Shown here in pieces: positions 11,681 through 60,098 of a stretch of DNA of 64,000 bases. Each line of letters begins with the position of its first letter. The first letter of the stretch is position 1. The translations under genes and the position numbers were made by a program. The notes under the pieces are model-generated. The model was not told the origin of the DNA. It did not search any database and saw only the letters and a program-made list of their open reading frames with translations. The DNA is taken from assembly GCA_028714675.1 (NCBI GenBank), contig JAQTLV010000001.1, positions 351,507-415,506 of the forward strand, read 5' to 3'. Origin of the DNA: Sulfurovaceae bacterium. GTDB lineage: Bacteria; Campylobacterota; Campylobacteria; Campylobacterales; Sulfurovaceae.

Positions 11681-13333
11681 TTATATTTTTTGTACAACTG
11701 TAACTTTTTTTGGATTAAAAAGATCAATCGCTTCTTTAACCATTGGTTCATCCATAAGCTCTTCAGGATTTTTTTCTTGTCCCGCAACATTAGCCGCTTC
11801 TGGCATTATGCAAGAACTTGGCATTTCAATATCTTCTATCATTGATCCAACATCATTTTTACATTCGTCTTGTTCTTTTTTGATGTTTTCTTGTTTGTCT
11901 GCTTCAACTTTTTGTTTTGATGGAGTATTTTTTATTTGTGTTTTATCACCAAATATATCTTGAACAAATTTTCTAATAATCCCAAAACCAGCCTTTAGTT
12001 TCTCTTTATCTTCATCATTTGCACTAGATATCCAATAAAGCGTATCATTTTCAAACTTGTCAAAAATAGTAGTTCTTTCAAAACAACTGCCAAGGACAAA
12101 ATCTCTATCAAAAATCTTTGTTTTAAGATTCTCAAAAAGTTTTTGATTAGATGTGTTTTTTGTGGGTGTGAGTGTGTGGACAACATCGTTATTCTCGCGT
12201 ATGCTGGAATCCACTTTTTTAGATTCCACATCAGCCATAGAATGTTGAGGTTTAGGCGTATCTTTTTGAGCATTTATATCATTTTGCAATTCTTTTATAA
12301 GCGAATCTATATCTCTAAGCTCAAGTGATTCCATCATTTTAAATAGGGTTAAATATAAAACAAAATCACCGTCTGAACCAAGTTTTAAAAGCTCTTTGGA
12401 ATTCGCAATTACTCTAAAAAACCTTTCTATTATAAGAGGAGAGAGAAGTTTATCATGTGCAAACATAATATCTTTGATAAATAGTGTAAGCTCATCTAAA
12501 ATCATTTCGCATTCATATTCTGAAGCCATTTTTATAAATTCATTTATCTTGTCTAAATCTTTTGCCAAAATTGAAGAGATAAGGTTTTTTAGATGATTTG
12601 GCTCTATGATGCCAAGCATATTTGTAACCGTAGTAACATCAACAAAATTTTTACTATATACTATAGCTTGATCTAAAAGTGTCAAAGAGTCCCTAAGGCT
12701 TCCAGCACCACTTCTAGCTATTATCTCAATAGCATCATTTTCATACTCAATACCTTCTAAGTTTAAAATATATTCAAGATGATTTACTACAAGTTTGTGT
12801 GGTATTTTTTTAAATCTAAAATGTTGAGTACGGGAAAGTATAGTTGCCGGAAGTTTGAGTGGATCTGTTGTTGCTAGTATAAATTTAACAAATGGCGGTG
12901 GCTCTTCAAGTGTTTTTAGAAGTGCATTAAATGCTTGAGGTGTAAGCATATGAACTTCATCTATAATAAATATTTTGTATCTAGCGCTTGACGGTCTATA
13001 TTTAGAGTGCTCTATCAACTCTTTTATATCATCAATTCCTCTATTACTAGCAGCATCCATCTCAATTATATCCATATGGCGATTTTCATTTGCCATATTA
13101 CAATTTGGGCATTCATTACACGGTGTTGAAGTTTCACCTTTGTCACAGATAAGTGCTTTTGCAAAAATTCTTGCAGTTGAAGTTTTACCGCTTCCTCTTA
13201 ACCCTGAAAATAGATATGCATGAGATAGTCTTTTGGAATCAAGAGCAAGAGAGAGTGTACTCGAAATAGAATCTTGTCCGATTAAGTCGGCAAAGAGATT
13301 TGGACGATATTTTCTAGCTAATACTAATGACAA
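11681..13333 (-). CDS. dnaX: DNA polymerase III subunits gamma/tau
   Basis: Clamp-loader ATPase of 550 aa. The N-terminal AAA+ module has Walker A GLRGSGKTSTARIF, a zinc module with four Cys (from CDKGE to CPNC), DEVHML as Walker B and the SRT sensor motif. The C-terminal part (about 370-550) is low-complexity and charged, as usual for tau. The start is TTG at 13333, preceded by AAGGAGG at good spacing, and MSLVLARKYRP fits family N-termini. Residues about 369-382 are encoded by a palindromic element (12187-12228) inserted in-frame in the linker. A possible frameshift site at the A6 run was considered and rejected. Confidence 0.94.
   Translation of the reverse strand: MSLVLARKYRPNLFADLIGQDSISSTLSLALDSKRLSHAYLFSGLRGSGKTSTARIFAKALICDKGETSTPCNECPNCNMANENRHMDIIEMDAASNRGIDDIKELIEHSKYRPSSARYKIFIIDEVHMLTPQAFNALLKTLEEPPPFVKFILATTDPLKLPATILSRTQHFRFKKIPHKLVVNHLEYILNLEGIEYENDAIEIIARSGAGSLRDSLTLLDQAIVYSKNFVDVTTVTNMLGIIEPNHLKNLISSILAKDLDKINEFIKMASEYECEMILDELTLFIKDIMFAHDKLLSPLIIERFFRVIANSKELLKLGSDGDFVLYLTLFKMMESLELRDIDSLIKELQNDINAQKDTPKPQHSMADVESKKVDSSIRENNDVVHTLTPTKNTSNQKLFENLKTKIFDRDFVLGSCFERTTIFDKFENDTLYWISSANDEDKEKLKAGFGIIRKFVQDIFGDKTQIKNTPSKQKVEADKQENIKKEQDECKNDVGSMIEDIEMPSSCIMPEAANVAGQEKNPEELMDEPMVKEAIDLFNPKKVTVVQKI
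12187..12228 (-). repeat. Palindromic element half-copy inside dnaX
   Basis: CGTTATTCTCGCGTATGC followed by TGGAATCC at 12187-12212 matches the left hairpin of the elements at 17939 and 53114. A GATTCCA at 12222-12228 pairs with TGGAATC. Read on the dnaX strand it encodes SSIRENND without a stop or frameshift, in the tau linker. In an antisense frame it gives VILAYAGIH, close to the VIPAYAGI peptide well known from this type of repeat in other Proteobacteria. Confidence 0.65.
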
Positions 13334-17632: not shown

Positions 17633-19537
17633 ATCCATTACTACCAAGTAGCACTATCAAAATCATCGGCTCCATTGTTAACCTATACAAGTGAAGCTAA
17701 ACTTGAAATAGGTAGTATTGTAAAAGTTCCACTCAAATGTACCGCAAAAGATGCCATAATTCTTGAAGAGGTAGCAAAGCCTGATTTTGAAACCTCTGAG
17801 ATTTTGGAAATTACCTCATACTATTACACATCAAAACAACTTGAAATTGCTAAGTTTATAGCACTTTATTATTTTTCTTCTATTTCGGAAAGCTTGGCAC
17901 TTTTTGTTCCACATGAGAGAGTAGAAAGTAATGAGCATCGTTATTCCTGCGAAGGCAGGAATCTAATGGATCCCCGTAGCAAGCACGAGGATGACGGAAA
18001 ACTTAATCAAGATGAAGTAGCATTACCCATTCTAACTAACTCTCAACAAAATGCACTTCAGACAATAAAAACTCATCAAAAATCACTTCTTTTTGGTGTT
18101 ACAGGTTCTGGTAAAACAGAGATTTTTATACATCTTATAGCTGATACACTTCAAAGTGGTAAAAATGTAATTTTACTTATGCCTGAAATTTCTTTAACCC
18201 CACAAATGAAAAAAAGACTAACTAAATATTTTGGCGAAGCTATAGCTTTATGGCATTCAAAGCTTACTAAAAAACAAAAATATGATATTTTAGATAGAAT
18301 TTCTACTGGAGATATAAGAATAATAGCAGGTGCGAGATCTGCACTTTTTACACCACTAGACAATGTCGGATTAATCATCGTAGATGAAGAGCACGATGAT
18401 AGTTATAAAGCCATGACAACACCTAGGTATCATGCTAGAGATGTAGCTGTGATGATGTCAGAAAAACTAAAAGCAAAAATTTTACTAGCAAGCGCTACCC
18501 CGTCACTCGGCTCTTATACAAATTATCCTATTGTAAGACTTATGGATTCTTACAATAAAAGCGATAAAACATATAAGTTTATAGGAGGGGATAGCATAAA
18601 TAATCATATAATAAATGCTATAACTCAAACGCTAAAAAATGATGAACAGGCAATCGTATTTTTACCAACAAGAGGAAATTTCAAATATCTGCATTGCTCA
18701 TCATGTGGCGATACTCACAAGTGTCCATTCTGTTCAGTTGGAATGGCATTGCATAGGGATAATCGTCATTTGAGATGCCATTATTGTGGGTATAGCGAAC
18801 CGATAATAACAAAATGTATAAGTTGTGGATATGAGCCATTATCTCAAAGCAGAATAGGTACAAAAGAAGCAGTAGAAATCATAAGTGAAAATTTGCCAAA
18901 TGCAAAACTTGGGCAATTTGATAAAGATGCCATAACGACTCCTAAAAAACTTTCCAGCCTATTGGACAGTTTGTCAAAAAGAGAGATAGATGTGCTTGTA
19001 GGCACTCAGATGATAAGCAAGGGGCATGATTATCCTGATATTACATTATCAATTATTATGGGGCTTGATTATGTTTTAGGATTAGCGGATTTTAGAGCCA
19101 AAGAGAGAGCTATGAGCTTGATGTTTCAAATAGCAGGTAGAAGTGGAAGAGATAAAAACGCATCAGTTCTCATCCAAACACAACATGAAGAGTATTTTGC
19201 TCCATATTTGAATGATTATGAACTATTTATCAAAGATGAACTTGAGTTTAGAAAAATGGCTTTTTATCCACCATTTTCTAGAATGTCTAGAGTTATAATT
19301 GAAAACAGAGATTTAACAAAAGCTAAAAATTTAACAACTTTACTTAGTAAAAAACTACATGAGTTGAAAAATATTGAAATCATCGGAGAAGGCAAAGCTC
19401 CTGTTGAGAGAATTGCAAATAAGTATAGGTATCATATCATTGTCAAATCACATTCGCAAAAAGAGCTTTTAAAAGCTTTGCATAGTATTAATGGCGTTGG
19501 TATAAAAATAGATATGGATGCGATTGATTTTTCATAG
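17633..19537 (+). CDS. priA: Primosomal protein N' (replication restart helicase), apparent ATC start
   Basis: DNA helicase that restarts collapsed forks by reloading DnaB. Walker A is GVTGSGKTE, Walker B DEEH, and a zinc-binding insert has eight Cys (CSSC, CPFC, CHYC, CISC). The conserved PriA N-terminus (HYYQVALSKS, then LTYTSE) is encoded from about 17633, upstream of the first ordinary start codon (TTG 17675), so I begin the gene at ATC 17633, giving 634 aa. Residues about 103-122 are encoded by an in-frame palindromic element in the linker between the N-terminal and helicase domains. dnaB lies two genes downstream. Confidence 0.85.
   Translation: MHYYQVALSKSSAPLLTYTSEAKLEIGSIVKVPLKCTAKDAIILEEVAKPDFETSEILEITSYYYTSKQLEIAKFIALYYFSSISESLALFVPHERVESNEHRYSCEGRNLMDPRSKHEDDGKLNQDEVALPILTNSQQNALQTIKTHQKSLLFGVTGSGKTEIFIHLIADTLQSGKNVILLMPEISLTPQMKKRLTKYFGEAIALWHSKLTKKQKYDILDRISTGDIRIIAGARSALFTPLDNVGLIIVDEEHDDSYKAMTTPRYHARDVAVMMSEKLKAKILLASATPSLGSYTNYPIVRLMDSYNKSDKTYKFIGGDSINNHIINAITQTLKNDEQAIVFLPTRGNFKYLHCSSCGDTHKCPFCSVGMALHRDNRHLRCHYCGYSEPIITKCISCGYEPLSQSRIGTKEAVEIISENLPNAKLGQFDKDAITTPKKLSSLLDSLSKREIDVLVGTQMISKGHDYPDITLSIIMGLDYVLGLADFRAKERAMSLMFQIAGRSGRDKNASVLIQTQHEEYFAPYLNDYELFIKDELEFRKMAFYPPFSRMSRVIIENRDLTKAKNLTTLLSKKLHELKNIEIIGEGKAPVERIANKYRYHIIVKSHSQKELLKALHSINGVGIKIDMDAIDFS
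17939..17997 (+). repeat. Palindromic element inserted in-frame in priA
   Basis: A 59-bp element beginning CGTTATTCCTGCGAAGGCAG and ending GAGGATGACGG, same length as the intergenic copy at 53114. The left hairpin is ATTCCTGC/GCAGGAAT; GGATCC lies in the middle; the right half is a decayed hairpin. It encodes SCEGRN and MDPRSKHEDDG without a stop, the same frame as the copy in the gene at 59103. Insertion adds about 20 residues to PriA. Confidence 0.8.
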
Positions 19538-53103: not shown

Positions 53104-53113
53104 TACTTTTTCT

Positions 53114-53172
53114 GTCATTCCTGCGAAAGCAGGAATCTATCTGGATCCACGGGTCAAGCCCGAGGATGACGG
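53114..53172 (+). repeat. Palindromic element, intergenic full copy
   Basis: Best-preserved copy, 59 bp: GTCATTCCTGCGAAAGCAGG at the left, GGATCC in the middle, and CGGGTCAAGCCCG with GAGGATGACGG at the right. Ends GTCATTCC/GGATGAC are inverted repeats. It lies between the convergent receptor and pssA genes and could also terminate transcription. Confidence 0.85.
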
Positions 53173-53206
53173 ACTTTTCTCACACTCACACCCACACACA
53201 AAAAAA

Positions 53207-58197: not shown

Positions 58198-59109
58198 TTG
58201 TCAAATAAAAAATTACGCAGAAATATAGTTATACAACAAATACAATATTACTTTGTTAGATTCTTTTTATTGATAGCAAAAGTCTTGCCAAAAAGTTTGA
58301 TATATTTAAAAATAAAAGTTTTCTCTCTCATAGGATTTTATTGTCTCAAAAGCAGAAGAGAATTAACTATATCTAACCTACAAAAAATTTATAATCTAAA
58401 TGACAAAGAAGCTTTTGTTATGGCAAAAAAAGTTTATTTGGGACTTTCGGAAACTATAGCAGAGATTTTATTTATGTTTGTAGATAGATTTGATATTGAT
58501 GAAGCCATAGAAAATATTAATGAAGCAAAAGAAAAACTAACCAAAATTTCTTCAAATTCTTCAAGCGGTGTAATAGTTATAACTGCACATTATTCTAATT
58601 GGGAACTTGCTGCTCAATTTTTGGCTAAAAATGGTTTACCTATGCTCGCTATTGGTAGAATAGGAAGTAATAAAATTATTGAGAGAAAAATTACTACGCC
58701 ATTTCGTGGGAAGTATGGTAACCGTGCAATTAACAAAAATCACTCCATGGTAGCAATGGCGAAAACACTTAAAAGTGGCGGAAATGTTGGTATGCTAATA
58801 GATCAAAAAACTAGTGGAACACATAGTGCCCAAATACCGTTTTTTGGTTTTGATGCAGCTACGACTCTATCCGCTGCTTCTTTAAAATTAAAATTTGATC
58901 CATTGGTAGTACCTATAAGTATAGTTAGAAAATCTCGTGGAAAATATGAGATCTATATAGATGAGCCGATAGAGTATAAAGCTGGGGAGATAAAAGATGA
59001 AAAAGAAAAATTACTTGCTATGACAGCTAGATATAATCAAGCTATAGAACATATCATTTCTAGAGATCCAAATCAATGGTTTTGGATGCACAATAGGTGG
59101 AAATGGTGA
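58198..59109 (+). CDS. Lipid A biosynthesis acyltransferase (LpxL/HtrB family)
   Basis: Inner-membrane lysophospholipid acyltransferase-like enzyme, 303 aa, adding secondary acyl chains to lipid A. One N-terminal helix, then HYSNWE (about 131-136), the HX4E catalytic motif, with GMLIDQKT and PFFGFDAAT later, as in LpxL. The start is TTG at 58198 with TTAAGGA 7 bases before it; the ATG at 58194 reads into a stop after four codons. First gene of a surface-glycan run; the stop overlaps the next gene. Confidence 0.88.
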   Translation: MSNKKLRRNIVIQQIQYYFVRFFLLIAKVLPKSLIYLKIKVFSLIGFYCLKSRRELTISNLQKIYNLNDKEAFVMAKKVYLGLSETIAEILFMFVDRFDIDEAIENINEAKEKLTKISSNSSSGVIVITAHYSNWELAAQFLAKNGLPMLAIGRIGSNKIIERKITTPFRGKYGNRAINKNHSMVAMAKTLKSGGNVGMLIDQKTSGTHSAQIPFFGFDAATTLSAASLKLKFDPLVVPISIVRKSRGKYEIYIDEPIEYKAGEIKDEKEKLLAMTARYNQAIEHIISRDPNQWFWMHNRWKW

Positions 59110-60098
59110 GTAAAGCACTCATATTTAGTGATGGCAAAAAAGGTCATCTAAATCAATCTATCGCATTTTGTAAATTTTTGAATTTGGAATATGACATTGT
59201 TGATGTGAAGTTTAAAAATAGATTTTTTAAACTATTGTCTTATCTGTTTGATAGGGTAGGTTTTTATAATATGTCTATTTTAGATATGAGTATGGATACC
59301 CAGGTCAAGCCTGAGTATGACGAATTTTGTCATTCCTGCGAAGGCAGGAATCCAGAAATAACGATAGATAATCAGTGGATCCAATCATCACTAAAAAATA
59401 AGAAATATAACCTTGCAGTGTGTGCTGGTTCAGGCACTTACTATGCCTCAAAAGTTATAGCAAAAAAGTTTAAAATAAAATCAGTTTCTATGATGTTGCC
59501 TCGTGGTTATAAGTATGATTTTGATGTGATTTTTGCTCAGTCTCATGACAACCCTCCAGTACGCCCAAATATTATAGAAATTCCTGCTAATTTTTCATAT
59601 ATTCAACCATCAAATATATATAAGCCAAAGAAACAATCTGTGGGCATTGTCATAGGTGGAAATAATAGTTATTTGTATATGGATAAAGATAAGCTAAAAT
59701 TCCAATTAGATTTTATACAAAAACAATTTAAAGATTACGAAATTGCTGTAACTACATCCCCAAGAACACCAAGAGAAATAGAGGATTTTATAAAAAGTTA
59801 TAAATTTGGCTATGAAATTATATACTCAAAAAATCCTATTAATCCAATACCAGACTTTTTGGAAAATTGTAAAACTGTTTTTATAACAAGTGATAGTACA
59901 TCCATGATAAGCGAAAGTATATCTTTTGGGAAAGCAAATATTGTTATCTTGCCTCTTGTGTCAAAAAAAGAAAATAAGTTTAACAGCTTTATATCAAAAC
60001 TGGAAAATGACGGGTATTTGCATATATTTAATGGTAAAATAGAGAATAAAAATAAAAAAATAGATTTTAGAAAATTTGTTAAAGGCATAAAAATATGA
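59103..60098 (+). CDS. ELM1/DUF1022-family protein, copy 1, with inserted palindromic element
   Basis: A 331-aa protein of the ELM1-like family (mitochondrial fission ELM1), a GT-B-like fold found next to LPS genes. Segments: IFSDGKKGHLNQ at the start, LAVCAGSGTYYASK, VGIVIGGNNS, TTSPRTPREIEDF and FITSDSTSMISES, the family's donor-site-like end. Residues about 64-84 are encoded by the palindromic element at 59294. It starts at ATG 59103, overlapping the acyltransferase stop, and ends overlapping the glycosyltransferase gene (ATGA). Function is unproven; a sugar transfer onto the lipid A core is likely. Confidence 0.8.
   Translation: MVSKALIFSDGKKGHLNQSIAFCKFLNLEYDIVDVKFKNRFFKLLSYLFDRVGFYNMSILDMSMDTQVKPEYDEFCHSCEGRNPEITIDNQWIQSSLKNKKYNLAVCAGSGTYYASKVIAKKFKIKSVSMMLPRGYKYDFDVIFAQSHDNPPVRPNIIEIPANFSYIQPSNIYKPKKQSVGIVIGGNNSYLYMDKDKLKFQLDFIQKQFKDYEIAVTTSPRTPREIEDFIKSYKFGYEIIYSKNPINPIPDFLENCKTVFITSDSTSMISESISFGKANIVILPLVSKKENKFNSFISKLENDGYLHIFNGKIENKNKKIDFRKFVKGIKI
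59294..59353 (+). repeat. Palindromic element, halves in reversed order, inside the ELM1-like gene
   Basis: The right half comes first (GGATACCCAGGTCAAGCCTG, then AGTATGACG, 59294-59322), the left half second (GTCATTCCTGCGAAGGCAGG, then AATCC, 59329-59353). GGATCC follows at 59378. The frame gives MDTQVKPEYDE then CHSCEGRNPE, the same reading frame of both halves as in priA. Confidence 0.75.

Follow-up and report, generated by a model that had tools for sequence, protein, structure and literature searches.

The closest described relatives of the element analysed here are the CGTC-1 REPs. Their unit consists of an 8-bp stem that opens with AT, a loop of 4 nt and a CCA tail, and they correspond to the dRS3 repeats of Neisseria and to RPE-6 of R. 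conorii (Di Nocera et al. 2013, PMC3733652). CGTC and GTAG REPs are both known from Sulfurovum sp. NBC37-1, and no transposase associated with the CGTC repeats has been found (PMC3733652). Intragenic REPs often lie in replication and repair genes, whose function the authors suspected to be altered; in two Xanthomonas species, for instance, recB is hit at roughly one position (PMC3733652). The main text of that study does not mention priA. RPE and WPE elements are likewise in-frame palindromic inserts, found in solvent-exposed parts of conserved proteins and at insertion places common to orthologues; RPE-1-type elements measure 100-150 bp. For biotin ligase, one case of different palindromic elements in the same region has been reported (PMC3767692).

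The window, that is the whole stretch of 64,000 nucleotides analysed here, belongs to a Sulfurovum-like genus of the Campylobacterota, as placed by the relatives of its PriA, and holds the only full-length priA of its genome. As the original prediction had it, a 59-bp palindromic element (17939-17997) lies in-frame inside this gene, and a copy is found between genes near 53114. The features of the priA locus are the following.

17675 to 19537, forward strand: priA, replication restart helicase, carrying the element in-frame (Pfam PriA_3primeBD, DEAD, Zn_ribbon_PriA, PriA_C).
17924 to 18028, forward strand: coding region of the PriA linker, including the element (AlphaFold pLDDT, alignment).
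17939 to 17965, forward strand: unit A, a CGTC-1-like REP with tag CGTT, 8-bp stem ATTCCTGC, loop GAAG and tail CTA (sequence, fold, family).
17967 to 17996, reverse strand: unit B, an inverted CGTC REP with a 9-bp stem and a 5-nt loop, consensus CGTCATCCTCGTGCTTGACACGGGGATCCA (sequence, heterodimer family).

The priA element thus consists of two unlike CGTC-tagged REP units, inverted relative to each other and with their GTC tags outward, one with an 8-bp stem and 4-nt loop, the other with a 9-bp stem and 5-nt loop. Unit A follows the consensus [C/T]GTC-ATTCCTGC-GAAR-GCAGGAAT-CCA, and inverted unit B follows CGTC-ATCCTCGTG-CTTGA-CACGGGGAT-CCA. Stem and loop of unit A (ATTCCTGC/GAAR/GCAGGAAT, 8 bp starting with AT, 4-nt loop) are those of CGTC-1, as is its 3-nt tail, CCA or CTA. 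The tag is CGTT in priA, one change from CGTC, and TGTC at 53113 and 59328, with GTC or GTT across the family. The likeness to CGTC-1 REPs extends to the CGTC/TGTC tag, the arrangement in inverted pairs, the mostly intergenic position with some in-frame copies, and the lack of a dedicated transposase; what differs is that two CGTC classes (8/4 and 9/5) are paired here, and that the host is another Sulfurovum-like genus. In all, 12 full heterodimer pairs were read, each 56-65 bp long and with a short spacer; they come from the window genome, from congeners and from a single genome of a sister genus. The window element is ordinary for the CGTC class, whose members are already known to insert in-frame into linkers. 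The kinship with Rickettsia RPEs and similar repeats that had been proposed holds, in that the element is palindromic, dispersed and of the RPE-6/dRS3 kind; judged by its sequence, it would also qualify as an RPE in the general sense, as an in-frame insert in a conserved gene that is absent from relatives.

Further copies in the window lie at three loci, as listed here.

53113 to 53172, forward strand: intergenic copy of the priA-type heterodimer, 3' of a TonB-dependent receptor gene (sequence, fold).
59097 to 60098, forward strand: ELM1-like gene (Mito_fiss_Elm1, Pfam PF06258) with intragenic CGTC units; the segment is absent or variable in relatives.
59293 to 59322, reverse strand: inverted unit B-like REP within the ELM1-like gene (sequence; same DNA in the orthologues of G003 and G004).
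59328 to 59354, forward strand: unit A (CGTC-1-like) within the ELM1-like gene, frame HSCEGRNP (sequence, orthologue comparison).
11681 to 13333, reverse strand: dnaX, whose linker holds a decayed CGTC-1-like unit.
12187 to 12213, forward strand: that decayed unit (21 of 27 bases as in the consensus; no hairpin above shuffles).

The exact core occurs three times in the window (17944, 53118 and 59333) against 0.01 expected by chance, and the priA, intergenic and ELM1 copies fold into hairpins whose energy lies beyond that of every one of 200 shuffles. The ELM1-like gene had been thought to carry the same element; it does contain related CGTC units in an open frame, but in the arrangement opposite to that of priA, with the inverted unit first and the tags facing inward, and hence not the same 59-bp element. 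The dnaX sequence, put forward as a further copy, proved to be a single decayed unit (hairpin z 0.16 against shuffles), and was rejected as a third full copy; a clear CGTC-type insert is present in the same linker of the G001 dnaX. As for the reading frame supposedly shared by the priA and ELM1 copies, it is stop-free and gives HxSCEGRN/L-P in both, but this is a coincidence and not a common rule: copies elsewhere translate as VIPAKAGI, SFLRRQES or DSCLRRND, several frames being in use because the unit is stop-free in five of the six.

When the whole genome (1.75 Mb) was searched, the core was found 13 times, versus none in the reversed control. Congeners carry 0-23 copies each, in a patchy manner, with nearly all of them positive; outside the genus, the core is numerous in a single further genome of the family and almost absent from the rest of the order. 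A pattern match in G038 was set aside as chance, as it resembles, by eye, ispE coding sequence. About 9 of 94 distinct core copies (about 10%) lie well inside long reading frames, including those of priA, the ELM1-like gene, a DNA methylase-like gene, a GDP-fucose-synthase-like gene and others, with names other than priA and ELM1 assigned by eye. Within the ELM1-like gene, the insert DNA is common to G000, G003 and G004, and absent in G001, while G010 and further congeners have other material in its place.

A tyrosine or REP transposase whose ends match the element had also been anticipated. Among the Y1_Tnp genes read in G000 and its congeners, none is flanked by CGTC units: they either lack such units or are flanked by GTAG REPs, apart from one single-sided CGTC neighbour of a Y1 gene in G003, located outside a GTAG-flanked pair. 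The Y1 pair lying near a core copy in G003, at first a candidate CGTC REPtron, is in fact flanked by GTAG REPs. It consists of two Y1 transposase (RAYT-like) genes in tandem, of 157 aa each (L120 1987-3077, G003:C46), between CCGTAGGGTGGGTTTGCTAACCCACC and GGTGTGTTGGCAAACACACCCTACGC, and constitutes a GTAG REPtron in Sulfurovum. The window element, CGTC-tagged and without a matching transposase, thereby differs from REPINs, in which the tag is GTAG or GGAG and the REP in question also flanks a RAYT gene, as is the case for other GTAG elements of the genus. Since no transposase with CGTC ends was found, we infer the mobility of the element from its distribution; mobilisation in trans and neutrality are inferences as well, whereas the identity of the element, its in-frame insertion, the predicted disorder, the repeated occupation of the linker by unrelated families and their turnover are shown by the data.

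At the site orthologous to 53114, G001 carries a two-unit CGTC element (L369, G001:C18) and G003 a collapsed one (L370, G003:C81), while a G010 contig ends exactly in a CGTC element. None of the three could thus serve as a clean empty site, and consequently no target-site duplication can be read. That different CGTC elements occupy one intergenic place in congeners is a hint that REPs, once in place, become targets or are exchanged for others. A degenerate GTGTGAGTGTGGGTGTG-like tract (53176-53200 in the window) adjoins many CGTC copies, and is also seen in dnaX linkers (L315, L316 and L320, where it encodes THTHTHT) and in the G003 PriA linker.

In the protein, the 3'BD domain covers residues 3-79 and the helicase begins at about residue 120 (Pfam). 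Between the motifs '..LF.P' and '..PTL', the linker of the window PriA counts 40 residues, against 16-20 in most insert-free relatives and 27-72 in nearly all PriAs with a palindromic insert. Alignments bear out the in-frame insertion into protein linkers that had been suggested, as the residues are missing at the linker in relatives; the converse situation, relatives keeping these residues without the palindrome, was checked and not borne out. An AlphaFold2 model built with 26 homologues has a mean pLDDT of 86 and falls below 50 only at residues 84-112. These residues are the insert, which hence fills a linker predicted to be disordered. Matches to solved gamma-proteobacterial PriAs start only at query residue 132.

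Unrelated repeat families fill this same linker in other species, an aspect absent from the original prediction. Across Sulfurovaceae, 44 of 81 PriAs have repeats in the linker, palindromic in 33 of these and belonging to at least eight palindromic families. The occupants comprise GTAG pairs (GTAGGGTGCG.., GTAGGTCGG.., GTAGGGGC.. and GTAGCGTGGG..) with complementary arms of up to 25 bp, CTCGTTCCCAC.. pairs, three kinds of CGTC unit and simple tandem repeats. Like known GTAG REPs and REPINs, the GTAG repeats of PriA linkers in other Sulfurovaceae form inverted GTAG...CTAC pairs and recur across their genomes. More generally, when 16 linkers were compared with their own genomes, dispersed matches were found in 16 of 16, one element (L203) recurring at more than 20 places. 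Different REPs at about one site of a repair gene recall recB of Xanthomonas, but only two species are concerned there, whereas the PriA linker involves dozens of species and many families; in comparison with RPE-1-type elements, one linker is here taken by at least eight families across a mostly free-living bacterial family. To our knowledge, and within the literature searched, such a takeover of one replication-restart protein linker by many families is new.

On a tree of the 81 PriAs, built with the linker left out, the occupant must have changed at least 29 times if all families are counted and at least 24 times if only the palindromic ones are; gain or loss of a palindromic occupant alone requires at least 12 changes. 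These numbers bear on the view that a single old insertion was merely inherited and diverged in place. Six of six PriAs of one genus clade have linker material, of CGTC type in five, and three genomes share one ELM1 insert, identical as DNA, as descent would have it. Descent could hold for single clades. For Sulfurovaceae as a whole this view is contradicted by the 24 or more changes on the tree and by linker families that are unrelated in sequence and match dispersed repeats; we regard it as very improbable as the full account. Even less credible is that misjoined repeats created the in-gene copies during assembly: most of the genomes compared are metagenome assemblies and one G010 contig ends exactly at such an element, but the elements are shorter than ordinary reads, independent assemblies from different projects agree, and reading frames are intact throughout.

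Turnover is visible between close relatives. The L166 and L176 PriAs are 94.6% identical outside the linker and have different families inside; compared with the remainder of the gene, their DNA is more diverged 5' of and at the linker, a pattern suggestive of recombination at this end. L177, L180 and L181, with PriAs 87-92% identical, also have different occupants and show no such diverged patch. Several or nested units are present in the linkers of L141, L145, L170 and L184. In the CTCGTTCCCAC units of the L166, L177, L180, L190 and L199 linkers, paired changes affect both arms of the stem, and look as if units had been exchanged within the family or the hairpin had been kept.

Over 68 loci, the PriA linker has 4.99 tagged REP units per kb, against 0.50 in its control. 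The remainder of priA has 0.04 per kb, neighbouring ORFs have 0.05 (0.04 in their control) and intergenic DNA has 0.46 (0.13 in its control). The linker is about 10-fold above intergenic DNA and about 100-fold above neighbouring ORFs; as the loci are related by descent, these raw densities overstate the independent events, for which the tree count corrects. Counting inverted repeats with arms of at least 10 bp gives the same picture. The DnaX linker, which is longer and rich in low-complexity residues, has one unit in 18 REP-rich genomes; these genomes were picked for repeats in their PriA linkers, and the comparison therefore shows that a supply of REPs was present, rather than an unbiased contrast of PriA with DnaX.

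Tolerance together with a high supply of REPs explains the position and frame of the insert. It does not explain well why the linker is denser than intergenic DNA, and pure tolerance is weakened by both the intergenic and the DnaX comparisons, so that preference or retention must add to it. If the DNA of the priA linker, or REPs already there, attracted new REPs, the site would be a true insertion hot spot. The tenfold excess over intergenic DNA, the linkers with several or nested units, the different CGTC elements near 53114 in congeners and the nearly empty DnaX linker are all consistent with this possibility, which we nonetheless consider rather unlikely: no common target sequence was identified, and GTAG, CTCG and CGTC families, presumably served by different enzymes, gather there together with simple tandem repeats. 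Retention by selection, whereby a longer or hairpin-coding linker would be advantageous, through changed restart activity or through an mRNA or DNA hairpin regulating priA, agrees with the high occupancy in a maintained frame and with the published bias of intragenic REPs to replication and repair genes (PMC3733652). We deem it improbable, as close relatives can differ entirely in what the linker holds, a linker of about 18 residues suffices for many relatives, and no peptide or hairpin is conserved in all linkers. That the PriA linker is a genuine hot spot, which REPs of several superfamilies using different machineries prefer or in which selection retains them, is put forward tentatively, at somewhat below an even chance.

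Overall, we consider it probable that the CGTC REP pair spread in trans, survives in a disordered linker, and is one of several families that repeatedly entered the PriA linker. The pair would be a short non-autonomous palindromic DNA mobilised by an enzyme acting in trans. Most copies land intergenically. Intragenic copies would persist where their length is a multiple of three, the frame read is free of stops and the insertion falls in a disordered linker. The linker between 3'BD and helicase of Sulfurovaceae PriA is such a place in this reading, and CGTC, GTAG and other families have entered it repeatedly, with new elements displacing old ones through insertion and deletion, and probably also through recombination with priA alleles of other species.

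One protein linker would then be a landing place for selfish DNA and, if the hot spot is true, a replication-restart helicase would be continually remodelled by it. The suspected bias of REPs to replication and repair genes has so far been without explanation; dozens of hits on one linker by unrelated families, in comparable species, make preference, selection and tolerance testable. The case also illustrates how disordered linkers acquire new sequence from hairpin DNA, and its natural REP-for-REP replacements may offer a way to learn how CGTC REPs move, for which no transposase is known.

Three other observations concern the priA region. Non-palindromic tandem repeats (GTGAATAGT.., GTTCAGC.. 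and GGAATGAG..) lie in-frame in several PriA linkers (L144, L148, L158, L149, L153, L164 and L173). In two species, a GTAGGGTGCGTACTCACGCACC unit lies inside another ORF adjoining priA (L173 4908, L178 3819). Finally, at G001/G048:C28:20606-23663, the 5' part of priA, including a 216-bp linker repeat, is tandemly duplicated with 100% identity.
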